Positions 3,086 through 21,171 of a stretch of 32,753 nucleotides of DNA are shown here, piece by piece. The DNA lies in contig JAADHN010000015.1 in the NCBI GenBank assembly GCA_013151865.1, positions 32,026-64,778 of the forward strand. Reading direction: 5' to 3'. Origin of the DNA: Kiritimatiellota bacterium. Lineage in GTDB: Bacteria; Verrucomicrobiota; Lentisphaeria; Oligosphaerales; JAADHN01. Positions within the stretch are counted from its first letter, which is position 1, and each line of letters begins with the position of its first letter. Both the position numbers and the translations under genes were made by a program. The notes under the pieces were generated by a model. That model was not told where the DNA came from and searched no databases. It was given only the letters and a program-made list of their open reading frames with translations.

Positions 3086-5122
3086 GTGACGCAACCCCCA
3101 TGTACGGCGCCGCCCGCCCTGGTCGTGGACTCCACACATAGCCCGCACGCCGTAATGCGCGGCGTGCCTTTGGACGCGGTCCGCCTCGGGCCGGACGGAT
3201 TCTGGGGCGAACGCCAAAAACAAACGCTGGATGTGACGGTGCGACGACTCTGGGAATTGCTGGCCGATCCGGAGGCCGGGCATGTCCTGGACAACTTCCG
3301 GATTGCGGCCGGCCTTGAAGACGGTGAGTTCGCCGGAACGTACTGGCAAGACGCCTGGCTCTATAAATGGACCGAGGCGGCCGCGTGCCTCTTTCGGCTC
3401 ACGCGGGACTCGTGGCTGGACGAACGGATGGATGAGGGTATCGAGCTGATCGCGGCTGCCCAGGAGCCGGATGGATATGTGGCCACCCAGATCCGGGCGC
3501 GAGGCTGGCCCCGGTTCCAGAAGCTGAACCACCATGAGGTTTATACCATGGGCCACCTGCTCACCGCCGCCGTGGTCCATCGCCGGATGACCGGAAAAAC
3601 GTCTTTCCTCGATATTGCCGTTCGCGTCGGCGACTTCCTTTGCCGGGCCCTGGGCAAGAGCGTTCCATGTCACTTTGCGCACAACCCTTCCGCCGTTATG
3701 GGCCTGGTGGAACTCTTCCGGGAAACCGGACGGCAAGATTACCTGGAATGCGCCAAACTCATCGTCGACGAACGAGGCGCCCACCCCAAGCCGCGGAACC
3801 CCTGGGAACGCCCGCCCGGTTTCAACGGGACCGACCAAATCCAGGATCGGGTCCCGCTGAGACAGGAAACCGAAGTCGTGGGACACAACGTCTTCTTTAC
3901 CTATTTGTTTGCCGGGGCCGCCGACGTTTTTCTGGAAACGGGCGACACCGAATTGCTCGCGGCCCTGCGCCGATTGTGGAAGGACCTTGTGGGGCGCAAG
4001 ATCAACCTGAACGGCGGGGTCAGCCCCATGGGCGTGGGCTTGTCCATACGCCAGGATCGCGTTGGCGAAGCGGTGGGGGCCGCCTATTTCCTGCCCAATG
4101 CGGACGCCTACAACGAGACCTGCGGCCAAATCGGCAACCTGTTATGGAACTACCGAATGCTCTGCGCTACGGGCGAGGCCCGGTATGCGGACATGATCGA
4201 GCACGAACTCTACAACGGCATTCTCTCCGGGATCGGCCTGGACGGGGAAAGCTGGTGGTACCGAAACCCGCTGCGCCGCCATCAGCCGGGCGAAGCCGGA
4301 CCGGGACTCAATGACCTGCCTCTGCGCGAGAAGCCCGGCAGTCGCCGCACCTGCTGCCCGACCAATGTGCTGCGCACAATCGCCGAAGTGGGCTCCTGGT
4401 TTTACACTCTCTCCGAAGACACTTGCTGGATCCACCTTTACGGCGCCGGCCGGGTCGAACTCGATGTCCCCGGCTCCCGGGCGGCCGGCGACGCCGCCCT
4501 GGTGCTCGAGCAGCACACGGACTATCCCTGGGACGGCGTGGTGGCCGTCGAAGTGCACGCCGCGCCCGAGCAGCCCGTGGCGATCGCTTTGCGTATTCCG
4601 GCCTGGGCTCACCCGGGCGAGGTGCGACTCGCCCTCAATGAAAAAGACGCCGGGACCCCAACGGTCCCGGGCTCGTATGCCGTGCTCCGGCGGCGCTGGT
4701 TCCCCGGGGACATCCTGGAGTTGTCTCTCCCGTTCGGACCACGGCTGGTGCAAGCCCATCCGCGGGCCGAACACCTGCGCAACCAAGTTGCCGTCATGCG
4801 CGGACCGGTGCTCTATTGTCTCGAATCCGTCGACCTGCCTCCGGAATTGGACTGGACCAAGGTCCTCCTGCCGTCGGACGTGCAGTTCGAAGCGGGCACG
4901 ACGCCGGCCTTGCCGGCGCGTTTGCCGGCACTCGAGTGCACGGCCCTGTACCGAGACGAACCGAACTGGGGTGAAGATGAGCTTTATCGAACCGTCTCCG
5001 CTGCACCGTTGCGACCGATTCGGGTCCGCCTGGTTCCGTATTTTTCCTGGGCCAACCGCGGCCCTTCCGCCATGAGCGTTTGGTTGCCGGCGACGTGGCT
5101 TCCCTGTGCCCCACGGCTTTGA
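3086..5122 (+). CDS. GH127-family glycoside hydrolase (beta-L-arabinofuranosidase type)
   Basis: The 678-aa protein matches the DUF1680/GH127 family, which removes beta-L-arabinofuranose from glycoproteins and glycans by a cysteine-nucleophile mechanism. The zinc/cysteine site is complete: Glu344 and Cys346 in YNETCGQ, and Cys423-Cys424 in RRTCCPTN. These equal Glu338, Cys340, Cys417 and the following Cys of Bifidobacterium HypBA1 with a constant shift of six residues. The N-terminal two thirds is the helical barrel (FAGTYWQDAWLYKWTEA and similar helices); the rest is beta-sandwich. Translation probably starts at GTG 3086, with GGGAGG at 3071-3076. There is no signal peptide, so it is probably cytosolic and acts on imported oligosaccharides. 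The family also contains members with other specificities, so the exact sugar is uncertain. Confidence 0.9.
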   Translation: MTQPPCTAPPALVVDSTHSPHAVMRGVPLDAVRLGPDGFWGERQKQTLDVTVRRLWELLADPEAGHVLDNFRIAAGLEDGEFAGTYWQDAWLYKWTEAAACLFRLTRDSWLDERMDEGIELIAAAQEPDGYVATQIRARGWPRFQKLNHHEVYTMGHLLTAAVVHRRMTGKTSFLDIAVRVGDFLCRALGKSVPCHFAHNPSAVMGLVELFRETGRQDYLECAKLIVDERGAHPKPRNPWERPPGFNGTDQIQDRVPLRQETEVVGHNVFFTYLFAGAADVFLETGDTELLAALRRLWKDLVGRKINLNGGVSPMGVGLSIRQDRVGEAVGAAYFLPNADAYNETCGQIGNLLWNYRMLCATGEARYADMIEHELYNGILSGIGLDGESWWYRNPLRRHQPGEAGPGLNDLPLREKPGSRRTCCPTNVLRTIAEVGSWFYTLSEDTCWIHLYGAGRVELDVPGSRAAGDAALVLEQHTDYPWDGVVAVEVHAAPEQPVAIALRIPAWAHPGEVRLALNEKDAGTPTVPGSYAVLRRRWFPGDILELSLPFGPRLVQAHPRAEHLRNQVAVMRGPVLYCLESVDLPPELDWTKVLLPSDVQFEAGTTPALPARLPALECTALYRDEPNWGEDELYRTVSAAPLRPIRVRLVPYFSWANRGPSAMSVWLPATWLPCAPRL

Positions 5123-5406: not shown

Positions 5407-6753
5407 ATGCGCGACAAGTCATCCGAGAAGAGTCTCCTGTATCACCGGTCCCCCGTTCCGGGCAAGATCTCGGTCGTCCCGACCAAGCCTTGCGAAACCC
5501 AGGACGAACTTTCCCTGGCCTACACGCCCGGCGTGGCGGTCCCGTGCCTGGAGATCGAGGCCCGCCCCGAGGCGGTATGGGATTACACCGGCAAGGGGAA
5601 CATGGTGGCGGTCGTGAGCGACGGCACGGCCGTGCTGGGCCTGGGCAACATCGGTCCGGAAGCCGGCCTGCCGGTCATGGAGGGTAAGGCGGTCCTCTTC
5701 AAGCGATTCGCCGACATCGATGCGTTCCCGGTTTGCGTGACGAACGTGCACGGCCCCAACGGGCGAACGGACGCCGAAAAACTGATCGAGATCACCGCGG
5801 CCCTCGAACCCACGTTCGGCGGGATCAACCTCGAAGACATCGGCGCCCCGGCCTGTTTCGAGGTGGAAACGGAACTGAAACAACGAATGGGCATTCCGGT
5901 CTTTCACGACGACCAACATGGGACGGCCATCATCTCGCTGGCCGGCGTTCTGAACGCGTTGATAATGGTGGGGAAAAAGATCGAGGACGTCCGGATCGCC
6001 GTGAACGGGGCCGGCGCCGCCGGGATCGCCTGCACCGAATTCTACATTGCCGCCGGTGCACGGCGTGAAAACGTCGTGATCTGCGACTCGCGCGGCGTGA
6101 TTTACCAAGGCCGCGAGGCGGGCATGACCCCCCAAAAAGAAGCTTTGGCCGCCGACACCTCCGCACGCAGCCTGGCCGAGGCCCTCGAAGGCGCCGACGT
6201 TTTCCTCGGCCTTTCCGTGGCCGATTGCGTCACCCCGGAGATGGTCCGGCGCATGGCCCCGAACCCGGTGATCATCGCCATGGCGAACCCGACCCCGGAG
6301 ATCTTCCCGGATGTCGCACTCGAGGCCGGCGCCGCGGTTGTGGGTACGGGCCGGTCGGATTTCCCGAACCAGGTAAACAATGTCCTGGGATTCCCGGGAA
6401 TCTTCCGCGGGGCGCTCGATGTGCGCGCCAACGACATCAATGAAGCCATGAAAACCGCGGCAGCCAAGGCCCTTGCGGAGATCGCACGCGAACCCGTGCC
6501 CGACGGCGTTAAAGAGTTTCTGGCTCGGGCCTACCCCGAAGACGCGGCCCGGGGCATGTTCGACGGCCCCTGTCCCTTGAGCCGGGAGTACGTCATCCCA
6601 AAACCCTTTGACCCCCGAGTCGTGCCCCGGGTCGCCCGCCGCGTGGCCGAAGCCGCCATGGCGACCGGCGTGAGCCGCATCGCCATTGACGATCTCGGCG
6701 CCTATGAGCGCGCCGTTCGCGACCGCATCGAAGCGGTCCGGCAGGGGGCATGA
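5407..6753 (+). CDS. Malic enzyme (oxaloacetate-decarboxylating, NAD(P)-dependent), short form
   Basis: It oxidatively decarboxylates malate to pyruvate and CO2, producing NAD(P)H, in the cytosol. The 448-aa protein carries the family's catalytic tyrosine (Tyr39 in LAYTPGVA), catalytic lysine (Lys94 in MEGKAVLFK), metal ligands in NLEDIGAP (Glu143, Asp144) and FHDDQHGTA (Asp168-169), and the dinucleotide-binding glycine loop GAGAAG at 201-206. It has only the malic enzyme domains and lacks the phosphotransacetylase-like extension of MaeB (about 760 aa). GGAG lies about seven bases before the ATG. It sits alone between two sugar-degradation genes, so it may supply pyruvate or reducing power during glycan growth, or be unrelated. 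Cofactor preference cannot be told by eye. Confidence 0.93.
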
Positions 6754-6775
6754 GCCTCCGGGAGGCCCAGACGGC

Positions 6776-6798
6776 GCTCGGGGCACGTTGTCCCGAGC
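6776..6798 (+). terminator. Hairpin after the malic enzyme gene
   Basis: GCTCGGG (6776-6782) pairs perfectly with CCCGAGC (6792-6798), with a further G-T pair inside. It is 23 nt after the stop codon and is followed by TTCGTTCTCG rather than a clean T-run, so termination efficiency is uncertain. Confidence 0.35.
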
Positions 6799-6885
6799 TT
6801 CGTTCTCGTTCCGCGCCGTCCGGCTCCGGCGCACGGCGCGTCCACGACGCCCAACCGTGCGCCGCCCCGGAAGGAGACGAAAATC

Positions 6886-9800
6886 ATGAAAACGACCTGC
6901 CTGGGCCTTGTGTTCTGCGCGACGCTTGCGGCGGCCGCGGCCGAAAAATCCGAGACCGTGGGTAAGCGGCCCTACGAAATGATTTGGGCGCATCGCGACA
7001 AAGACGACAACCCGCCGTTGGTCGATTTCGAAAACCTCGACGGCTGGACAGTGGAAACACGCAACGCCGTGGCGCGCTTCGAACGCAGTCGTGAACAGCA
7101 GATATGGGGCAAGTTCGTAGGCAAACTCACGTATCGTGCCGCCGGCAGCAAACGTCCGTTCGTCCGAGTGCTTCCCCCCGCCCCCATCCCGATCCGAGGT
7201 TCGTTCGACGCAGTGTCCTGCTGGATCTACGGGAACAACTGGGCCTGGGTTCGCGACGCGACTACGCCGCGGGTGTCGGTCAGCCTCGATTTCGCCGACC
7301 CAACCGGTGCGGAGTTCGCCATCCGCTTGGGGGTGGTCCGCTGGAAGGAATGGTTCCTCTGTCACCGCCGACTCACGCCGGAACAGATTGCCCGGGTCGC
7401 GAACGGCGCGGAGTTCCGCGGCATCACCATCGGCAACGGCCTGAACAAACAGGACCGGGTGCTCTACTTCGACAACCTGGCGGTATTCATCGAGAAATTC
7501 CCGCCCCTCAGCTTTGAGCCGCGTCCCAAACGCGGCATCGACATGTTCCCCGGCCAAAGCCCGGGAACGAACACCGGACCGGGACGCCTGCCCTTCCCGA
7601 CCCGACCGGAGACCATCCTCCCGGACAATCTCGCCCGCGACAGCCGAACGACTGCCGTTCGCGACAAAGACGGCGGCGTCCGATTCGAGTACGAAGGATC
7701 GGACGGACGCCTCACCTGGCTGATCACCCCTCGCACCGGAACGTTCGACGACATCCGCGTTCGCTGGCACGGGCGCGGCGGCTGGATTCGCCCCTGTGTA
7801 GGCGGCGGCGTCTTCCCGGCCGACGCGAACGGCAAGCCCGTTGCGCCGGACAAGGCCGAACTCGTGGACGCAAAGCTCGACAGCGGGGTATTCAGATGCC
7901 GCTGGAAACTCACCGCCCCTTCCGGGACCGTGAACGTCACTTGGACGCTCCGGGTCCTGGGCAAAAGCCTGGTTCTGGATCTGGCCGCACCGGGCGGCAA
8001 CGTCTGCGAAGTCCGCTACGGGCGGGCCGTCGGCTTTGCGGCGCCCCGGGCCGTCCCCATACCGTACCTGACCTACGGCCGACCCCGGCCGGGCCTCATC
8101 GTGGCCGGCCGCCCCGAATCGCCCCTGTTTTTTTCCGAGTGGACCGACTGGTACCGCTCGAATGCAAGCGTGCCCTGGGGTGGGTGCGCCGTCACCAAAG
8201 AAGGCGCCGTCTGCAACGGCGGTGTGCGGTACATTCCCCTGACCAACGGCCGCCGGAACGACTGTTTCGAACGCCTGATCTTTACCCTCGCCCCTCGGGT
8301 CGAGGAAGTCTTGCCGAACATCCCGAACCCACAATCGCCCTGGAAAAAGGTCACCGGCACCCGGGTCTGGCGTGCGCACGGAGCGAGCAACCGCGAGAAC
8401 GACGCGGCATTCTGGCGCAAAGTCCACCGTTACGGCATGACCCAGGTGATCGTCACCGACCACGAAACCGGCTGGCGCGACGGCGGCGAAAGTTTCACGT
8501 TCCGGACCCGACCGGCCCCCGGCAAAGGCGGCGACGCGGGCCAGTACAAGTACGCCCGGATCATGCAGGATGAACTCGGGTTCGTATATGGGCCGTACAA
8601 CAACTTCACCGACTTCGCCCCGGTGAACGAATTCTGGAGTTACGACATGATCAGTCGGACCCCGGACAACCAGCTCCAAGGGGCCTGGGCGCGCTGTTAC
8701 GCTCCGAAACCGGCCCGGGCCGTCGAGTACTGCGCCCGCCTCGCCCCGATAATTCAGAAGAAGTTTCACTTCAGTACCGCCTACTGCGACGTCCATACCG
8801 CCGTGGCTCCCTGGAGCCGGGTGGACTACGATCCCCGAGTGCCGGGCGCCGGCACATTCGCGGCGGTCTTTTACGCCTATGGCGAAATCATGCTCCTCCA
8901 GAAAAAGGCTTGGAACGGCCCGGTCTATTCCGAAGGCGGCCATCATTTCCCTTATTGCGGACTGACGGACGGCAATTACGGGCAGGACCAGTCGTACCGA
9001 CTCCCCGAAAACCCGTGGCTGGTGGACTTCGACCTGCGCAAGATGCACCCCCTGTGCTGCAATTTCGGCATGGGCAATCCGGGCATGTTCTATGGCCGGA
9101 ACCATGCCATGGGGACGAAGCGCCGGGAGATCGACGCCTACATCGACCGGTTCCTGGCCGCCACAGTGGCGTTCGGGCACCCGGGGTTCCTGGCCTTCGA
9201 AGGCGGCTATCGCAACGCCTTGCGCAGCTACTTCATGCTCCAGCAGCTTCACAGCCGATATACCCTGGCCGACGCCGCGGACATCCGGTACGCCGACGCC
9301 GGGGGGCAATTGCTTGACTCGAGCGCCGCGCTTGCCCGTGGCGCCTATCGCCGTTCTCAGATCGTCACCCGCTACACCGACGGCACCGTCACGGTCGTCA
9401 ACGGCCACCCCGCCGAAAGACTGAAGGTCCGGATTGACGAACGGCCCCTCGACCTGCCGCCCAACGGCTATGCCGGTTGGACCCGGGACGGCGCCGTCGA
9501 GGTTTTTTCCGGCGACCGAGACGGCACACGTTGTGACTATGTCGTCTCTCCGGCCTACCTTTACGTGGACGGCCGCGGCCGCTTCGTCCGCTTCCCGAAG
9601 GCGGCCGGGGCCGCCGTGGGCATCTGCCGGATATTGCCGGACCGCACCTGGGAGGTCATCCTGTACGACGGCCTCGAATGCGGCTTTGCCGTGGACGCCG
9701 CAACGGCCGTCGCCTTGAACGAGGCCGGGGAGGAGCTGGGGCCGGCCGAACTCCGCCGCGCCCGGGGATTGACGTTCGTCATGCCCGTCAAGGAAGCTTT

Positions 9801-11241
9801 CAGCTACCGGTTGCGCGGCGGTTCGACGGCGACCGGACCGGATCTGCGCAGCGACCGCGACACGGCGTCCCCCGGGGAAACGGTCGTGGTCCGCGGCCGC
9901 GAGCAGCACCGCTTCCAAATTCCCCGGGACGCCCGGGCCGGCGACCGGATCTGGCGCAAGTTCGAAGGAAAGTGGATCGATTTCACCGTGATCGATCCCG
10001 CCCGGGTCGACCTCCGCGTCGACGGCGACAAACTGCGTGCGGATATCACCAGCCAAATGGCCGTCCCCGCAAAATTCGTCCTCGTCTTGAACGCCCAACA
10101 CCGCACGCTCGAACTGACGCCGGGCGCCGGCGGGCGTGCGGAGTTCGCATTGCCGCCCGCCCGCGACGAAAGCATCGACCCCATCGCGTTGAAGATCACC
10201 GCCGGGGCCGTCGGCATGACCGTGGACCGGCTGCTGCTCACCGAATCGGGGTTTGTCGAACTCGCGCCGCTCCCTGCGCACTGGACCGGGGGCATCCGCC
10301 TGCGCGGCAAGCCGGAACAAGTGGGGTTCGGGGAAACGCGGGGACACGCCTACATTGGGCGTGCATCCTGCAACAATCAGGACAAGAAAGCGCTGGACAT
10401 GCACCCCCCGTACCGGGGCGGCGTGGGGTACACGTACGCCCTGTTCGACGCGATCCGGCTCCCGGCTGCGCCGCCCGCCCGCTTCCGAGCCATGGTCGGA
10501 AAACGCGACGGCAGCGACCTCGGAGACGGCATCCTCTACCGAGTCGAAGTCGTGGACCCCGCCGGCAACGTCCGGTCCATTGCCGAGGAAACCGTCACCA
10601 AGCACCAGTGGCGCCCGATCGCGGCCGACCTCGGCCCCTGGGCGGGAAAGACCCTGCAACTCAAGCTCATTGCCGACGTGGGTCGAGCCGACAACTCGAG
10701 CGGCGACTGGGCCTGTTGGGCGGATATGAGAATCGAGAGCGCCCGGCAACAGCTCATCCGCAAGCTCATTCCACCGGACGGCGCCTTTGCCACGGCCCCG
10801 CCTCCGGTCAAAAGCGGACAGGTTCCCCGCGCCCGACTGCGCGCCGCGCGCAGCGGCCGCATCCATTACGACGGGATCGGACTCGAAGGGGCCGGCAACC
10901 AGTATGAAACGACCGCCGTCCTCAACGGCGTCGTTCTCGGCCCCATGGCACGGGCCGGCGGGAGCGAAGTCGGCGGAAAATGGGCCGAAGATGTCACCGT
11001 CGCCCTGACGCCGGCCGCCATTCGCACCCTCAAGCGCCGGAACCGATTCCAGATCCGTAATCCGGGCCGCGATTGCTTCAAAGTGCGCCGATTCTGGATC
11101 GAACTCGAACTGGCCGACGGCCGAAAATGCGCTTCGCGGGTCAGCACGGCGGTCTTCACCCAACCCGGGACTTGGCGGTATGCCGAGGGGATCGGCGTGC
11201 CCGCCGACGAAACACTCACCATCAGCATCTGGTTCGAATGA
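6886..11241 (+). CDS. Secreted multi-domain putative glycoside hydrolase (GH101-like barrel)
   Basis: This is a 1451-aa exported protein. A short signal peptide (MKTTCLGLVFCATLAAAAA) would be cut before EKSET. AAGGAG lies at 6871-6876. By eye the order is an N-terminal beta-sandwich (about 30-230), a second beta domain (about 250-470), a barrel (about 485-800), beta-rich modules (about 800-1110), an NPCBM-like carbohydrate-binding region (about 1135-1285) and a final beta module. In the barrel, Asp635 in AYCDVHTA and Glu683 in VYSEGGHH are placed like the nucleophile and acid/base of endo-alpha-N-acetylgalactosaminidases (GH101) and related unclassified families. I infer fold and role from this layout and do not recognise a close family. 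The substrate is unknown. Neighbours point to complex, probably sulfated, glycans. Confidence 0.6.
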   Translation: MKTTCLGLVFCATLAAAAAEKSETVGKRPYEMIWAHRDKDDNPPLVDFENLDGWTVETRNAVARFERSREQQIWGKFVGKLTYRAAGSKRPFVRVLPPAPIPIRGSFDAVSCWIYGNNWAWVRDATTPRVSVSLDFADPTGAEFAIRLGVVRWKEWFLCHRRLTPEQIARVANGAEFRGITIGNGLNKQDRVLYFDNLAVFIEKFPPLSFEPRPKRGIDMFPGQSPGTNTGPGRLPFPTRPETILPDNLARDSRTTAVRDKDGGVRFEYEGSDGRLTWLITPRTGTFDDIRVRWHGRGGWIRPCVGGGVFPADANGKPVAPDKAELVDAKLDSGVFRCRWKLTAPSGTVNVTWTLRVLGKSLVLDLAAPGGNVCEVRYGRAVGFAAPRAVPIPYLTYGRPRPGLIVAGRPESPLFFSEWTDWYRSNASVPWGGCAVTKEGAVCNGGVRYIPLTNGRRNDCFERLIFTLAPRVEEVLPNIPNPQSPWKKVTGTRVWRAHGASNRENDAAFWRKVHRYGMTQVIVTDHETGWRDGGESFTFRTRPAPGKGGDAGQYKYARIMQDELGFVYGPYNNFTDFAPVNEFWSYDMISRTPDNQLQGAWARCYAPKPARAVEYCARLAPIIQKKFHFSTAYCDVHTAVAPWSRVDYDPRVPGAGTFAAVFYAYGEIMLLQKKAWNGPVYSEGGHHFPYCGLTDGNYGQDQSYRLPENPWLVDFDLRKMHPLCCNFGMGNPGMFYGRNHAMGTKRREIDAYIDRFLAATVAFGHPGFLAFEGGYRNALRSYFMLQQLHSRYTLADAADIRYADAGGQLLDSSAALARGAYRRSQIVTRYTDGTVTVVNGHPAERLKVRIDERPLDLPPNGYAGWTRDGAVEVFSGDRDGTRCDYVVSPAYLYVDGRGRFVRFPKAAGAAVGICRILPDRTWEVILYDGLECGFAVDAATAVALNEAGEELGPAELRRARGLTFVMPVKEAFSYRLRGGSTATGPDLRSDRDTASPGETVVVRGREQHRFQIPRDARAGDRIWRKFEGKWIDFTVIDPARVDLRVDGDKLRADITSQMAVPAKFVLVLNAQHRTLELTPGAGGRAEFALPPARDESIDPIALKITAGAVGMTVDRLLLTESGFVELAPLPAHWTGGIRLRGKPEQVGFGETRGHAYIGRASCNNQDKKALDMHPPYRGGVGYTYALFDAIRLPAAPPARFRAMVGKRDGSDLGDGILYRVEVVDPAGNVRSIAEETVTKHQWRPIAADLGPWAGKTLQLKLIADVGRADNSSGDWACWADMRIESARQQLIRKLIPPDGAFATAPPPVKSGQVPRARLRAARSGRIHYDGIGLEGAGNQYETTAVLNGVVLGPMARAGGSEVGGKWAEDVTVALTPAAIRTLKRRNRFQIRNPGRDCFKVRRFWIELELADGRKCASRVSTAVFTQPGTWRYAEGIGVPADETLTISIWFE

Positions 11242-11452
11242 GGCCGTGTCCCCGGAGGAGAGGACTCGCTCGAATCGTCCCCCTGTCGAGGACGAGACAC
11301 CGCGGTTGCAAATCTCCACATCCCGCGCCACGTTGGCAGGATGAGATCATGTTGCGCTCTGGGGGATCGTTGCGTCCGGGACGAACGCCCCGTCCCCACC
11401 GGTTTCTCCGATGGTGTCCCGGGAGGGAAAAAGGGAAAAAGGACCGCGTGGA

Positions 11453-12934
11453 ATGGCAGGCGTCCGCGACAAACCCGACATTCTGCTGCTCATGGGCGAT
11501 GAACACCCGGTATTCATGACGGGCTGTTACGGCCATCGCAGCGTTCGAACCCCCGCCATCGACCGGCACGCGTCCCGGGGACTCGTCTTCGACGCCGCCT
11601 ATTGTCCAAGCCCGATTTGCGCTCCGTCCCGAGCCGCAATGATGACCGGCAGACACGTTCACACCGTCGAAGTCTGGGACAACGCCTCTCCATTGCGCTC
11701 GGACTGGCCCACATTCGCGCACAGTTTCAGTGCCGCGGGGTACCGCACCATCCTCTGCGGCAAAATGCACTTCGTCGGCCCGGATCAACTTCACGGGTTC
11801 GGCGAGCGCTGGACCCAGGACATCTATCCCGCCACCTTCGACTGGACCCGCTCCAACCGTGCCGGGCCTGCTGTGAATTCCGGACAAAACATCGACCGCG
11901 TTTTCGAATGCGGGCCGGGATGGACCTCGGACATGGATTACGATGAGGAAGTGGCGTTCCGCGCCGAATACGGCCTGCGGCAACTCGGGCGCGAACGACG
12001 CCGGCCTCCGTTCCTGCTGTGCGTCTCGTTCACGGGCCCGCATTACCCTTACCGGGCGCCGCAACCTTGGTGGGACCTGTACACCGACGACGACGTCGAC
12101 CTGCCTCAAATCCCCGAGGACTACCGCGAACGGGAGCACGAGTACGTGAAGTGGCTCCGTATTCACGGACAGTTCGACCGCTTGGTCCCGGACAATGTGG
12201 CCCGGGACGCGCGTCACGCCATTCTGGGCCGCATCTCTTTACTCGATCATTACCTGGGCCGCATCCTGGACCTGGCGGAGAGGACCGGTCTGGCAGAGAA
12301 CTTGATTACCGTTTACACCAGCGATCACGGGGACATGATGGGCGAGCACGGCCTGTGGTTCAAGAACGCAGCCTACGAATGGTCGAGCCGGGTCCCGCTC
12401 ATCGTGTCCGGGCCCGGGGTCCGATCCGGCCGAATTGCGGAAGCAGTCAGTCTGCTCGACCTCGGGCCCACGCTGTGCAGTTTGGCTCAAGTCGCTCCGG
12501 TCACCCCGGAAACAGACGGGCGCGACCTGTCCGACTTGATCCGGGGACAGCGGGGACCGGGTCCGGGATCGGCGATCATGGAGAACTACGGAGAGGGCGT
12601 CTGGCGCGGGTGGCGGATGATCCGTCGCGGCAACGTCAAACTGACGTACGTGCCCGGGTGCGAGCCCGAACTCTACGACCTCGCCCGCGATCCCGGCGAG
12701 TGGAACGATCTCGCCGGCGATCCGGCGTACCGCACAGTGCGAGACGAATTGACGGCGCAGGTATTGGACGGATGGGGACCGGACGCCTGCGACGAGGCGC
12801 GCTGGCAGAGCGAGGAACGGCGTCTGGCCATCCTGAAATGCCCGCCGACTTACCATTGGCAGCAGCCGTCCCCTCCCGTACCGCATCCGCTCTGGTCCGA
12901 CCGCACCCGCCCCATCGACAATGTCAACGTGTGA
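11453..12934 (+). CDS. Type I (formylglycine-dependent) sulfatase
   Basis: It hydrolyses sulfate esters, probably from a sulfated glycan. The 493-aa protein has the FGE recognition motif ICAPSRAAMMTGRH, with Cys56 as the residue converted to formylglycine, an N-terminal metal-binding segment LLLMGDEH (Asp16) and the metal ligands Asp and His in TSDHGDMMGEHG. The frame opens at an ATG at 11411, but I prefer the ATG at 11453: AAAAAGGA lies just upstream at suitable spacing and homology starts there. Neither start gives a signal peptide, which is unusual because most sulfatases of this family are exported. A cytosolic enzyme, as in choline sulfatases, is implied. No formylglycine-generating enzyme or anaerobic maturase is in the window. 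The exact S1 subfamily cannot be named by eye. Confidence 0.9.
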   Translation: MAGVRDKPDILLLMGDEHPVFMTGCYGHRSVRTPAIDRHASRGLVFDAAYCPSPICAPSRAAMMTGRHVHTVEVWDNASPLRSDWPTFAHSFSAAGYRTILCGKMHFVGPDQLHGFGERWTQDIYPATFDWTRSNRAGPAVNSGQNIDRVFECGPGWTSDMDYDEEVAFRAEYGLRQLGRERRRPPFLLCVSFTGPHYPYRAPQPWWDLYTDDDVDLPQIPEDYREREHEYVKWLRIHGQFDRLVPDNVARDARHAILGRISLLDHYLGRILDLAERTGLAENLITVYTSDHGDMMGEHGLWFKNAAYEWSSRVPLIVSGPGVRSGRIAEAVSLLDLGPTLCSLAQVAPVTPETDGRDLSDLIRGQRGPGPGSAIMENYGEGVWRGWRMIRRGNVKLTYVPGCEPELYDLARDPGEWNDLAGDPAYRTVRDELTAQVLDGWGPDACDEARWQSEERRLAILKCPPTYHWQQPSPPVPHPLWSDRTRPIDNVNV

Positions 12935-15972: not shown

Positions 15973-18900
15973 ATGAGACGAGTCGATCGCGCACTTCCCG
16001 GAATCGTACTGCTGGGCGCAGCACTGGCCGGCATCCTGCTGGGACGTCCCGCCCGCGGGCTCGACCGCCCCTGGATCGCCGATGTCTTTTTCTATTGGTA
16101 CGAATGGGACCCCAAGACCGAACAGGGAAACTGGATCAACGGCGTCCACAACACCCCGCTCCAGGGCTACTACGACTCGCGCACATTCCGCGACAACTAT
16201 TCGACCCTGAAAACCGCCGCGGAATGGGGTATCACCCATCATTTCATCGATTACTGGGGCTTCCCGTGGAAGGACGAGAAAGGTCGGCGGCGCGAGAAGG
16301 TCGTGTTCGAAGCCGCGGAGGCACTCAAGAAACAAGGCTACGATATCGCGATGGGTTTTTACCAGGACGGCAAAAACTTCGCCATGGACGTCTTCGCGAA
16401 GAACCTCACCGAACACCGCGACACGGAGTACTGGTTGCGTGAGTTCGCGCACTCCCCGCTCTGGCCCCGGCTGAACGGACGTCCGGTGCAGTTGGTCTAC
16501 GGCCGCAACGGACGCCCGGTCCCCACGCAGGACAACGACGCCTACCGGCGCTGGCTGCGGAAACGCTACAAGACACCGGATGCTCTCAACCGGGAATGGG
16601 GGACCGATATCAAAGGCTTTGACGCGGTCCGTCTGCAATACGGGGCCCGGGGACCGGAACGCGCCGATGCGGTCGAATTTGCCTTCGTCGCCTGGCGACG
16701 GGAATGGGCCAAGCTCGACGCCGTGGTGCAGCAACGTTTCGGCTTCCCCGGCATCAAGGCCAGTTTCGACGTGGGCTACACCCCGTTTCGGAACTTCGGC
16801 TACCTCGGCCTGACCCGGACCTTCTGCGGCCCGCATTCGTACGGCGGCATCTTCGGACCGCCGGCGGAGCGGGACGTCGAGCGCTTCATCCAGGCGCAGG
16901 TCGCCAAACATTACGACTCCGTGTTCTTCGATCACTTCAAGAACTACTACCACGATTGGGACATTCGGGTCCCCGGTTTCGCCTACCTGCCGGACCCCGT
17001 GAATTTCGACCGGTTCTGGACCGGGGCCCTGATGCGCCGATCCGAGGCCCTGCTGCATCTTTCCTGGAACGAATGGTGGGAAGGGTCGAACCTGGAGCCC
17101 TCCCGCGAATTCGGCAAGAAGTACTGTGAAAAAAACCTCTTCTACGCCACGCTGATGAAGCGCTGCTTCCCCGATATTCGTTCCGCATGGCAACGGGCGC
17201 CCATTGCCGTACTGTTGAACGATTACGCGCTTCGCTGCGGTGCAGCGGACCCGGACGACCTGTACCGGACGATCACCACGCTCCGTCGCCTGAACGCCCC
17301 GTTCGACCTCTTCCCCGACGCCCGGGCGACCCCGGCCGCACTCGAGCGGTTCAAGGTCATCGTGGCTCCGGCGTGCGGCCAGGGGTTCGGGCGCAACGAC
17401 CGGCGCGAAGAACTCTTGCCCATGCTCCTGGACTGGGCATCGAAAGGCGGCCTGCTCATTCTTTCCGCGGATGCGAAGTCCGCGGAAGCCCTGGGGCTTC
17501 GTCGGAGTGTTCCACCGCCTGCCGCCGGCCCTACCCGACCCGGTCCGGACCTGAACGTTTTCGTGGACGTGGGGACGGATGGCGACGAACGCTTTCTGGC
17601 GTCCGGATACTCGGGGCGCGAGAACTGGGGAAAACTGCCGGCAGGAACGTTCGGCGCGGGCACGGAAAAGACGGTACGCTGGGTCCCGGGCTCGGAGCGC
17701 ACGACACATTTCCGCTTCCCATCATCGCCGTTGCGGGACCACGTCCTTCGTCTCGGCGGCAGCGCCATCTGGGACAACCGCGTCACGGTGACGGTCAACG
17801 GCCGCCGAGTCGGGCAATTCCCCATCGCACCGGGCGAAAACGAGACCGCCATCGCGATCCCGGCCGAGGCCATCGGCGGACGCCCGGTTGCCGAGGTGAA
17901 GTTGAACTATGCCGCCATGCACGTTCCGGGACGAAAAGACCCGAAACGCTTCGGGGGTGAATCTCGTATCTGCAACCTCGCCCTCGAATGGGTGCAGTTC
18001 TCGACAGCCGACATTCCGGCCCGAAACCTTGAGCAGAGGTACCGGCTCCCGAAAGCCGCCGTCGTTTTCCTGGATCCCGTATACGGTGCACTGAAAGGCC
18101 AAACAGCGGCGGCGCCGTACACCGCGGCGCCGTGGCTGAAGTGGGACGGCGTCGGCGCCCGGGTCCTTTCGAAATACGCCGACGGCCGGCCCCGCGGCAT
18201 CCTCGTCCCCCGCAATCGGGGCCGCGTGCTCTACGTGAACGGCAGTTTCGGAGACTTCTCCGCCGCGGCGGAGACACCGCGAACCGACGTCGCCGCGACC
18301 GATCTCCAACTCTGGGACGCGCTCCTGGCGAAGTTGGGCAAGACGCCCCCGGACCGCTACGTCTCCGGCGCCGGCCTGGGCGGCGAACGCCTGCGGACTG
18401 GAACGACCGACATCCTGCCGGTATACAATTACCGCGGCGATGCGGAATCCGCGCCGCCGGTCCCGGTCCGGCTGTCGGTGCCGGCAGGCACATGGCCTCT
18501 GAGCGAGGCGGTCGCGCTGAGCCGCGACGGTGAGCGGGGCCCCGTACCGAGGCAGCTCTCGTCCGGCCGCCGGGGCGACCGCTGGGAGGCGACCGATACC
18601 GTGCGCTGGTGCGCGGTGTACGCCTTCGTGCACGCCCCGGCGGCTCTTGATATCCCAACAATGTCCGGCGTACCGGGCGAGACGGTGACATTCCCGGTTA
18701 CGGTCCGAAACCTGACGGACCGGCCGCTCTCCGGAACGCTGCGAGTCACAGCCGGAATCCCGACCGTCTCGGGCGAGGCCCGACCCTTCACCTGCCCGGC
18801 GGGCAAAGGAAAAGAGGTCCGGGTGGGGTTGCCGGTCCGGATTGCGGACTCCGCGGAATGGGGCCGGAAAACCGTGACCGTCGAACTCGACTGGGGCGCG

Positions 18901-21171
18901 GACGAGAAGGCCTGCTTTTTCCGACCCCTGATTGTCCAGAAACTCCCGGAACTCGAGTTTACCCCAGTCCTGATTGGAAATCTGCCCGGACTTCAAGTCC
19001 GCTATCCGCCCGCACCATCGGGCCTGGCGCCCTCGATCGGGGGAATCCGAATCGTTCGGGAACACTCGCAGACGGCCCATAGCGGCACCCTGGCGCCGGG
19101 CCAGACGCGCACTTTCGCGCTGGACGGACCGGCCCCCGGGGGCACTCTCCGCCTGCGCCCCGGGAAGCTGCGGTTTTCGTACCTGGCCGGCACACGGCGG
19201 GTTTGGAAGAAACTCGACCTGCTTTGGCCGGTCCTGCCCGAGAAACTCGCGGCCCCGAACGCGCAGGCGCGCGCGCTCCTGCTCTGGAACCCGACGGCGA
19301 TGGGAATCGGTCCCATCGCTCTGACCGCGCGGCTCCCCCGGGACCCCGGACCGTGGCACATCGCCGATGACGCCGGTCGCCCGGTCCCCGACCAATCCGT
19401 TCCGGAACATCGAAGGGTCCTGTTTGCGGGCGTCGCTCCGGCCGAAAGTGCCCGGCTGTACTGGCTTGTTCCGGGAAAAGCGCCCGAAACACCGCGGACC
19501 GACCTGACTTGGCGCGTCGAAGGAGAACTCGGCAGCGGCACAGGCCGTGTGATCGTCGAAAACGCATGGTTCCGTGTCGACCTCGATGAAGCCGCCGGCG
19601 GCACCGTGACCCGCCTGGTGTCCAAACGCACGGGGCGCAACTATGCCCGGAATCACAGTTTCGATTTCAATTTCGGACGTTTCACCAAGCCGGGGCATCC
19701 GCGCCCCAAGGTCAGCACGGCCCAATTGATCGACGAGAAAAAAACACGCCTGTCGGACGGACCCCATCCCCTGAAACTCACCCGGCACGGTCCGTTGTGG
19801 GTCGTGGTCGAGTCTCTGGCTATCCTGGGCGCCACCACGTGCAGCACGCGCTACGAATTCGTCGCCTACCAACCCATGTTCCGAATCATCCGCCGCGTCC
19901 GACGTTCCGGGGGACCGGCGCCGGAAGAAGTCGTTGTGCTGGACTCCGACCTCGAGCCGAACCTCCTGCGCAAGAGTTCCCCGGGCTTTGCCGGAATTTC
20001 CGCACCAGCGCCCAAGTGCCACTACGGCTGGAGGTACAGCGATTGGGTGCCCCCGGACATCACGCTCCTCCCCGCCCGGCCGGGCACGGACACCGAAGCC
20101 ATCACTTTTCACATCGTGGAAAGTCAGGGGATCGACCGGGTCCGCCAGGGCTTCTGGCCCGCGAACCGACCGAAGGTTGGGCCCCGGGCCACGGCCCGAA
20201 TCGAATACATCTCCCGAAAAACAAACAGTGCCCTGTTGAACGTCCGAGTGCGCCTGCACACCGGCTGGCAACTCCAGGGACGGCGCTGGTTCGATACGGC
20301 GAACCGACTGCGGTTGAAGACCATCAACCTCCCGAAGGACGTGCGGCAAGCCGCCTCGTCGCCCGTTGACTGGTGGTGCACGGCCTGGCCCCGACGGCAA
20401 TGCGTCTCCGTCCAAAAGGACCAAGTGCACGACGGGTCGGTCTCGCTCCGGATCGGCGGACGGGAGTCGCCCGCCCCCGAGTCGGTGCGGCTCATCGAAC
20501 ACAGGGACGGCGCACTGCTCGAGTTGCCGTACGGTCTGGTCGCGGACGGACGGACCGTGGTTTGGCGCGCGCCGCCCGAGGGTCCGTGGCCGCGCCGGTA
20601 TCATGTCTACTGGGCGCCGGCGGACTTCCCCGCCCCACTCCCGACATCGGACTGGACCCGGACGGCAATCGTCTCGTTCCCGTTCGAGGAAAGTTTCGCT
20701 GAAAGCGGCGGCTGGCGCTTTTCCGGAGTCGTAAGGCGTGAACAGGCCGGACGGAACGGGACCCCGGCACTATTCTTCGACACGCCCAAGGGCGGTCCGC
20801 GCATCGCGATCTGCGACAAGGTGTTGCCGGAAGTGGACACCGCCTACCGGGTGCGGTTCACGGCCAAGGCCGAGGGCGATACCCCTTCCCTGGCCACGAA
20901 CCTGTACGCCGGCCCGGGATTCGACGGACCCCAGACGCACACCGCGCTCAAGTCGGACGGGGCTTGGCACGAGTACGGGATCCGCCTGCCGCCGGCCCGA
21001 TTCCCGCCGGAGCATGTCCCGCGCTTCCGGTTTTGGGTCATGCCCGGCGACTTCCGTGTGTGGCTCGATCGCGTGCGCATCGAACGTGCCGGGCCTGCCG
21101 CGGCGCCCCGCCGATCCGCTTCTCTCGAAGCCCCCGTCGAGAGCCTGCCCCTGCCCGGAGAATCGCAATAG
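15973..21171 (+). CDS. Secreted five-domain glycosidase: GH99/WbsX-like barrel fused to GH38-like beta-sandwich
   Basis: This 1732-aa protein has an N-terminal signal segment (residues 1-29, ending RPARG). Residues about 30-400 form a GH99/WbsX-like barrel: the motif WNEWWEGSNLEP at 365-376 has Glu367, Glu370 and Glu375 as acidic candidates, and families of this kind act on mannan-type or surface glycans. Residues about 400-515 resemble the flavodoxin-like domain of GH42 enzymes (KVIVAPACGQGFG, KGGLLILSAD). Then come a jelly-roll (about 550-690), an Ig-like NEW3-type domain (about 895-1000), a segment like the GH38 mannosidase C-terminal sandwich (about 1190-1500, with VENAWFRVDLDEAAGG), and a final binding module (about 1560-1710). 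All boundaries are by eye. AAGGA lies upstream of the ATG. Only the first barrel seems to carry an active site. The substrate is unknown. Confidence 0.7.
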   Translation: MRRVDRALPGIVLLGAALAGILLGRPARGLDRPWIADVFFYWYEWDPKTEQGNWINGVHNTPLQGYYDSRTFRDNYSTLKTAAEWGITHHFIDYWGFPWKDEKGRRREKVVFEAAEALKKQGYDIAMGFYQDGKNFAMDVFAKNLTEHRDTEYWLREFAHSPLWPRLNGRPVQLVYGRNGRPVPTQDNDAYRRWLRKRYKTPDALNREWGTDIKGFDAVRLQYGARGPERADAVEFAFVAWRREWAKLDAVVQQRFGFPGIKASFDVGYTPFRNFGYLGLTRTFCGPHSYGGIFGPPAERDVERFIQAQVAKHYDSVFFDHFKNYYHDWDIRVPGFAYLPDPVNFDRFWTGALMRRSEALLHLSWNEWWEGSNLEPSREFGKKYCEKNLFYATLMKRCFPDIRSAWQRAPIAVLLNDYALRCGAADPDDLYRTITTLRRLNAPFDLFPDARATPAALERFKVIVAPACGQGFGRNDRREELLPMLLDWASKGGLLILSADAKSAEALGLRRSVPPPAAGPTRPGPDLNVFVDVGTDGDERFLASGYSGRENWGKLPAGTFGAGTEKTVRWVPGSERTTHFRFPSSPLRDHVLRLGGSAIWDNRVTVTVNGRRVGQFPIAPGENETAIAIPAEAIGGRPVAEVKLNYAAMHVPGRKDPKRFGGESRICNLALEWVQFSTADIPARNLEQRYRLPKAAVVFLDPVYGALKGQTAAAPYTAAPWLKWDGVGARVLSKYADGRPRGILVPRNRGRVLYVNGSFGDFSAAAETPRTDVAATDLQLWDALLAKLGKTPPDRYVSGAGLGGERLRTGTTDILPVYNYRGDAESAPPVPVRLSVPAGTWPLSEAVALSRDGERGPVPRQLSSGRRGDRWEATDTVRWCAVYAFVHAPAALDIPTMSGVPGETVTFPVTVRNLTDRPLSGTLRVTAGIPTVSGEARPFTCPAGKGKEVRVGLPVRIADSAEWGRKTVTVELDWGADEKACFFRPLIVQKLPELEFTPVLIGNLPGLQVRYPPAPSGLAPSIGGIRIVREHSQTAHSGTLAPGQTRTFALDGPAPGGTLRLRPGKLRFSYLAGTRRVWKKLDLLWPVLPEKLAAPNAQARALLLWNPTAMGIGPIALTARLPRDPGPWHIADDAGRPVPDQSVPEHRRVLFAGVAPAESARLYWLVPGKAPETPRTDLTWRVEGELGSGTGRVIVENAWFRVDLDEAAGGTVTRLVSKRTGRNYARNHSFDFNFGRFTKPGHPRPKVSTAQLIDEKKTRLSDGPHPLKLTRHGPLWVVVESLAILGATTCSTRYEFVAYQPMFRIIRRVRRSGGPAPEEVVVLDSDLEPNLLRKSSPGFAGISAPAPKCHYGWRYSDWVPPDITLLPARPGTDTEAITFHIVESQGIDRVRQGFWPANRPKVGPRATARIEYISRKTNSALLNVRVRLHTGWQLQGRRWFDTANRLRLKTINLPKDVRQAASSPVDWWCTAWPRRQCVSVQKDQVHDGSVSLRIGGRESPAPESVRLIEHRDGALLELPYGLVADGRTVVWRAPPEGPWPRRYHVYWAPADFPAPLPTSDWTRTAIVSFPFEESFAESGGWRFSGVVRREQAGRNGTPALFFDTPKGGPRIAICDKVLPEVDTAYRVRFTAKAEGDTPSLATNLYAGPGFDGPQTHTALKSDGAWHEYGIRLPPARFPPEHVPRFRFWVMPGDFRVWLDRVRIERAGPAAAPRRSASLEAPVESLPLPGESQ

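Follow-up and report, generated by a model that had tools for sequence, protein, structure and literature searches.

Positions 6886 to 11241 of a 32,753-nucleotide stretch of contig JAADHN010000015.1 from a Kiritimatiellota bacterium (assembly GCA_013151865.1; the whole stretch is called the window below) are occupied by a large open reading frame (ORF), whose product, P0001, is the subject of this analysis. The initial annotation described it as a large protein resembling glycoside hydrolase (GH) family 101, in which Asp635 (in AYCDVHTA) and Glu683 (in VYSEGGHH) lie on neighboring strands of a barrel flanked by β domains, and which could represent a new family of the same clan. The ORF and both motifs were found where they had been placed, and the layout of the protein is given in Table 1. 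An even longer antisense ORF of 1970 residues (5419-11331, minus strand) overlies this gene and its neighbor; since the relatives match the plus-strand frame, we take the antisense frame to be a shadow of the G+C-rich P0001 gene.

Table 1. Predicted features of the P0001 gene, with three nearby genes; positions refer to the window
Feature	Position	Strand	Basis
Whole gene, secreted protein P0001, 1451 amino acids	6886-11241	+	open frame of 1451 codons; relatives match
N-terminal signal peptide, ~residues 1-20	6886-6945	+	read by eye: positive start, hydrophobic stretch, Ala-rich end
N-terminal β-sandwich, ~residues 55-201	7048-7488	+	model secondary structure; weak FlaA profile match
Second β domain, preceding the barrel, ~residues 231-469	7576-8292	+	within DagB/NagBb-aligned region (model range 242-881)
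Catalytic barrel (predicted), ~residues 487-826	8344-9363	+	model, fold matches; borders by eye from secondary structure
Family-specific block DHETGWRDGGESFTFR, residues 525-540, replacing the GHD-type motif	8458-8505	+	40-sequence alignment
Trp601, pairs with NagBb Trp398 (sugar stacking platform)	8686-8688	+	profile alignments; role from available text of PMC8106489
Asp635, predicted catalytic nucleophile	8788-8790	+	conservation, profile alignments
Glu683, predicted acid/base	8932-8934	+	conservation, profile alignments
His721, third invariant residue of the whole superfamily sample	9046-9048	+	40-sequence alignment
CBM51/NPCBM-like β-sandwich, ~residues 1122-1287	10249-10746	+	model fold matches, Pfam NPCBM
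C-terminal β domain, residues 1288-1451	10747-11238	+	unmatched in a number of relatives
GH127 gene	3086-5122		
Sulfatase gene, CAPSR motif	11411-12934		
GH141-like β-helix gene	13042-15885		

Residues 22-1010 were modeled with AlphaFold2 from 69 aligned sequences (mean predicted local distance difference test score (pLDDT) 93.2, predicted template modeling score (pTM) 0.91). Strands and helices alternate in the model as in a barrel, on either side of which lie β-rich parts. Asp635 (model residue 614) comes right after strand 611-613 and Glu683 (model residue 662) right after strand 659-661, and these two strands are successive in the list of secondary structure elements, in agreement with the architecture first proposed. 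The leading rows of a Foldseek search were GH101 3ecq (E 2.0e-17), the 3,6-anhydro-D-galactosidase DagB of Zobellia galactanivorans (5opq, E 7.0e-16) and GH101 5a55 (E 8.2e-14), with NagBb, the GH129 α-N-acetylgalactosaminidase of Bifidobacterium bifidum, lower down (5wzn, E 2.8e-12) and α-glucosidases between and below. VIA-align ranked DagB (5opq_D; Z 25.0, root-mean-square deviation (rmsd) 4.7, 534 aligned) and NagBb (5wzp_B; Z 24.0, rmsd 3.4, 514 aligned) ahead of the GH101 enzyme EngBF (6qfo; Z 18.9, rmsd 7.1, 529 aligned), and its best rows begin at about model residue 243, so that the alignment spans both the second β domain and the barrel. The closest solved fold thus differs with the tool: the suggested kinship to GH101 is borne out by both searches, but the place of GH101 as the nearest kin holds for the Foldseek E-value and gives way to the GH129-type DagB and NagBb in VIA-align.

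A separate model of residues 985-1451 (pLDDT 93.3, pTM 0.74) contains a further sandwich that resembles carbohydrate-binding module (CBM) family 51, with Z 13.3 to 7jrm and Z 13.0 to 2vmi, in a range where other sandwiches score as well (Z 11-13.6). The Pfam NPCBM model gives P0001 15.6 bits, below its cut-off of 23.9, and is weakly reached by 19 of 51 family members at E<=1 (best 4.6e-4). The CBM51-like module (residues ~1150-1290) is also present in several further large ORFs of the source genome (L009-L015). CBM51 modules bind galactose-type and blood-group glycans.

The two acidic residues are strictly conserved. Both are retained in all 65 relatives chosen for wide coverage and, more broadly, in 77 of the 77 relatives that cover both sites (six more ORFs miss the sites); the 68-row family alignment leaves out relatives whose match starts after query position 30 or ends before 890. 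At the profile level, the full-length family profile reached local proteins of the GH101 model (seven ORFs) and of the DUF5696 model with E 8e-8 and 2.2e-8, respectively. The family barrel profile matched a profile made of 11 DUF5696 rows and one GH101-like row (L104, a C-terminal piece of which found zero matches in direct sequence search) with probability 95.2 and E 2.6e-8, pairing Asp635 with the Asp of YFDVLS and Glu683 with the Glu of SSEGG. The latter profile in turn matched NagBb at E 4e-50, its same Asp and Glu falling on NagBb residues 435 and 478, and position 435 is also visible in a separate alignment line that starts at 433 with YLD. Hence, by way of this intermediate profile, Asp635 and Glu683 would correspond indirectly to Asp435 and Glu478 of NagBb. 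Trp601 is paired with NagBb Trp398 through the same profile, and a Trp is found here in 17 of 17 family members, five of six paralogues and 14 of 17 other sequences. We take Glu478 to be the second catalytic residue of NagBb. The first is Asp435, with Asp486 as its counterpart in DagB (available text of PMC5698469), and Trp398 serves as a stacking platform for N-acetylgalactosamine (GalNAc; available text of PMC8106489). GH101 enzymes are retaining and work by double displacement, with Asp as the nucleophile and Glu as the acid/base; in EngBF the two are 4.2 Å apart (available text of PMC10949244).

To these likenesses can be added that NagBb shares with P0001 a β domain joined to a barrel, and that GH101 (3ecq) has β domains flanking a barrel with the same Asp and Glu roles that are predicted in P0001. 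The differences are equally pronounced: P0001 has ~10% identity to NagBb, from which it differs in the pocket block and in being far bigger, with additional β domains at both termini; 12% to DagB, a GH129-like enzyme for which its authors proposed a new family of its own; and 10-11% to GH101. DUF5696 (Pfam: PF18952) is the nearest profile by sequence, albeit with one GH101-like row added, and both catalytic residues align with it, yet it carries a G[HY]DG motif that the P0001 family lacks.

We prepared a joint alignment of 40 sequences, namely 17 family rows sampled from 66, six paralogues, 11 DUF5696, three GH101-like (L104, L111 and L113 out of the seven GH101-model ORFs) and three GH129 sequences, and compared the residues of positions 500 to 900 that do not vary within the family and are D, E, H, R, K, W, Y, N or Q. 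Asp635, Glu683 and His721 are the only such residues invariant in 40 of 40 sequences, the first two being the only invariant acids. The DUF5696 and GH101-like rows show a G[HY]D motif followed by Pro, with the GHD-type motif in three of the three GH101-like rows and in none of the 17 family rows, where the stretch is built instead on DHE, RD and ESFT; D525, H526, E527, R531, D532 and E535 are shared by all 17 family rows, whereas none of the 17 DUF5696, GH101-like and GH129 rows has them. Given this replacement of the GHD-type motif by DHE..RD..ESFT, the substrate is probably different too. The source genome also codes for more distant paralogues (L002-L007; L008 is the same gene as L004), of which L005-L007, judged by their sequences, are a bridge between the P0001 family and DUF5696, because they retain the older motif and directly match DUF5696. 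In a FastTree phylogeny of 261 barrel columns the family groups with the six paralogues in a single clade (support 0.954) that excludes GH129 as well as the joined DUF5696 and GH101 sequences; support for the P0001 family alone is 0.745. Neither DUF5696 nor GH129 forms a single clade and the distances are great, so the deep branching order is uncertain.

Scanning of genome contigs recovered at least 78 loci with relatives (from the best 80 of 86 matches), with 39-64% identity over the best segment, in seven phyla of mostly uncultured bacteria: 25 in Planctomycetota, 16 in Lentisphaerota, 13 in Verrucomicrobiota, 11 in Armatimonadota, six in Kiritimatiellota, two in Poribacteria and one in Omnitrophota, with four lacking a phylum label. 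One of these loci (L053) is from Oligosphaera ethanolica. An even sample of the source genome's own phylum gave a match in 31 of 288 genomes at E <= 1e-100, and 28 of 40 genomes of the same order had one at E <= 1e-10, a count that includes the genome itself, paralogues and shared β domains; a plasmid collection held zero relatives. DUF5696 matches likewise occur in 28 of 40 genomes of the order, with up to 12 per genome, and the source genome has five GH129 matches in four ORFs and two GH101 matches. The GH101/GH129/DUF5696 superfamily is strongly expanded in the source genome and its relatives in the order.

This family is captured by neither a Pfam nor an NCBIfam model. P0001 has zero Pfam matches at E <= 0.1, Glyco_hydro_101, GH129, GH13 and DUF5696 included, and zero NCBIfam matches at E <= 1. 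Neither P0001 nor the 66 members matched Pfam Glyco_hydro_129, and DUF5696 is absent from the 15 Pfam families matched by any of the 66 at E<=1. No published description of the family was found in the literature searched, which lay outside CAZy, dbCAN and most subscription papers, and DUF5696 returned zero papers in the same literature. By the profile tests made, P0001 belongs to neither GH101, GH129 nor DUF5696, and the family is most likely undescribed when set against Pfam, NCBIfam and the literature, a comparison outside the CAZy family models. The doubt first voiced as to whether this is a known GH101 enzyme was therefore well placed, with no significant Glyco_hydro_101 match, no GHD-type motif and a separate clade, and the idea of a new family in the same clan has gained support, with DUF5696 and GH101-like proteins as its nearest outsiders.

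Given that the fold, the catalytic pair and the profile similarity agree, we place P0001 in the GH101/GH129 superfamily and propose, with a probability of about 0.82, that it represents an undescribed family therein, acting as a secreted glycoside hydrolase and most likely as a retaining α-glycosidase. Its fold is predicted, and we infer its activity, retention, α configuration and substrate. Several observations weigh against this proposal: 1) the barrel region of the 66 members, searched against Pfam at E <= 1, reached Glyco_hydro_101 as the sole related model in just two members (best E 0.027); 2) hhalign gave a probability of 4.3 between the family barrel and a profile of three local GH129 proteins (the full-length family profile reached local GH129 proteins with probability 46 and E 2e-4); 3) phmmer of P0001 against PDB sequences returned only designed immunoglobulins, as chance rows (E 0.14-0.37), and the family profile returned FlaA flagellar sheath proteins (E 0.008-0.06; the weak match of the N-terminal sandwich has E 0.008) and zero glycosidases; 4) amylase-type (GH13) and GH36 barrels reach VIA-align Z 18-19.7, GH13 over ~340 residues, with Z 19.7 for the best row outside GH101 and GH129, and hence fold alone cannot fix the family; and 5) no neighbor cluster occurs in more than eight of the 79 loci clustered, the window included and the P0001 family itself aside. 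Of the folds named for comparison in the initial annotation, GH101 was matched and GH13 showed barrel similarity, without a Pfam match, while GH66 is not named among the Foldseek and VIA-align rows shown.

The genes for RtcB, GH127, malic enzyme, P0001, a sulfatase, a GH141-like β-helix protein and an unclassified protein of 1732 residues run in one direction in the window. The GH127, sulfatase and GH141-like genes around P0001 resemble a sulfated-polysaccharide locus. The 1732-residue protein (15973-21171) has weak matches only (WbsX, E 5e-4; GH42, E 0.004), with none notable in PDB sequences, and is possibly another unnamed glycosidase. In the available text of PMC5698469, the Zobellia carrageenan cluster likewise combines a GH129-like enzyme, GH127 enzymes and S1 sulfatases. 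P0001 could therefore be a DagB-like exo-enzyme on sulfated algal galactans, with the neighboring sulfatase and GH127 as its partners, a reading favored by the presence in the window of the same three kinds of gene as in that cluster and by DagB being the top VIA-align row. We consider it unlikely: the malic enzyme gene sits between GH127 and P0001, sulfatases make up only two of the 108 nearest-neighbor ORFs of relatives, and of the four essential acids of DagB just the Asp435-type residue can be tied to the P0001 family. Among those 108 ORFs (out of 111, as longest-ORF calls that may include shadow ORFs) the commonest Pfam families were GFO/IDH/MocA (6) and S9 peptidase (5), and the 94 second-neighbor ORFs showed no dominant family; by the longest-ORF rule, loci L027, L029, L077, L084 and L090 had no family member and contributed no neighbors. 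Because the malic enzyme interrupts the set and the neighbors are not conserved in relatives, we gave the hint from the gene neighborhood little weight and rejected it as a substrate clue.

It is improbable to a similar degree that P0001 is a glycosidase of this superfamily that works by another mechanism or other residues, for instance as an inverting enzyme involving D525, E527, D532 or E535. Every family member sampled carries these four acids, which none of the 17 rows from other groups has, and DagB likewise needs four acids, one essential Asp being supplied by the partner chain, and does not conserve the second catalytic residue of NagBb (available text of PMC5698469); however, it is Asp635 and Glu683, and no other acids, that persist throughout the 40 superfamily sequences. 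Still less probable is that P0001 is merely a divergent, ordinary GH101 endo-α-N-acetylgalactosaminidase acting on mucin-type O-glycans. The first Foldseek row and the CBM51-like module, with the glycan preference of CBM51, would suit such an enzyme, but the GHD-type motif is missing from every family member sampled, the tree groups GH101 with DUF5696 away from the P0001 family, and the sources include groundwater, lake and Thermogutta records, where mucin would hardly be the main substrate. P0001 might instead have lost catalysis and only bind sugars, as the several β domains around the barrel and an activity that is so far only predicted could suggest, but this is very unlikely, since a dead site would not keep both the D and the E invariant in 77 relatives from seven phyla.

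Beyond the glycosidase genes, the segment 21464-31804 of the window is likely a phage-defense island. It codes for an HKD plus Snf2 helicase (PADLOC C3a139, E 2e-128), a DUF1016 protein (PDC-S02), an AAA ATPase (PDC-M56A, E 1e-142) and an Eco57I-type methylase (type IIG-like, E 1.5e-97).

Returning to P0001 as a retaining α-glycosidase of the GH101/GH129 superfamily, we propose that Asp635 would attack the anomeric carbon and that Glu683 would act first as the acid and afterwards as the base, such that an α-glycosidic bond is cut with retention. Trp601 and His721 may hold their superfamily places within the sugar-binding site. The region of the pocket that carries GHD in GH101 and DUF5696 appears to have been rebuilt as DHE..RD..ESFT, and the sugar accepted probably differs from that of GH101 (GalNAc), while the downstream CBM51-like module could keep the enzyme on its glycan. 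As a guess, the substrate might be a galactose-type, perhaps sulfated, glycan. In a more specific form, for which we judge the odds to be about even, the family would be a new CAZy-level, cross-phylum group of α-glycosidases in which the Asp, Glu and His are all that is left of the GH101/GH129 machinery, the pocket has been remade around an invariant block rich in acids and arginine, and the linkage cleaved is one not yet assigned in the superfamily, such as one in a charged or sulfated glycan. The pocket differs greatly from its GH101 counterpart and suggests a substrate perhaps not covered by the known members of the superfamily, and naming the P0001 family would annotate in one go many genes that Pfam and NCBIfam miss.

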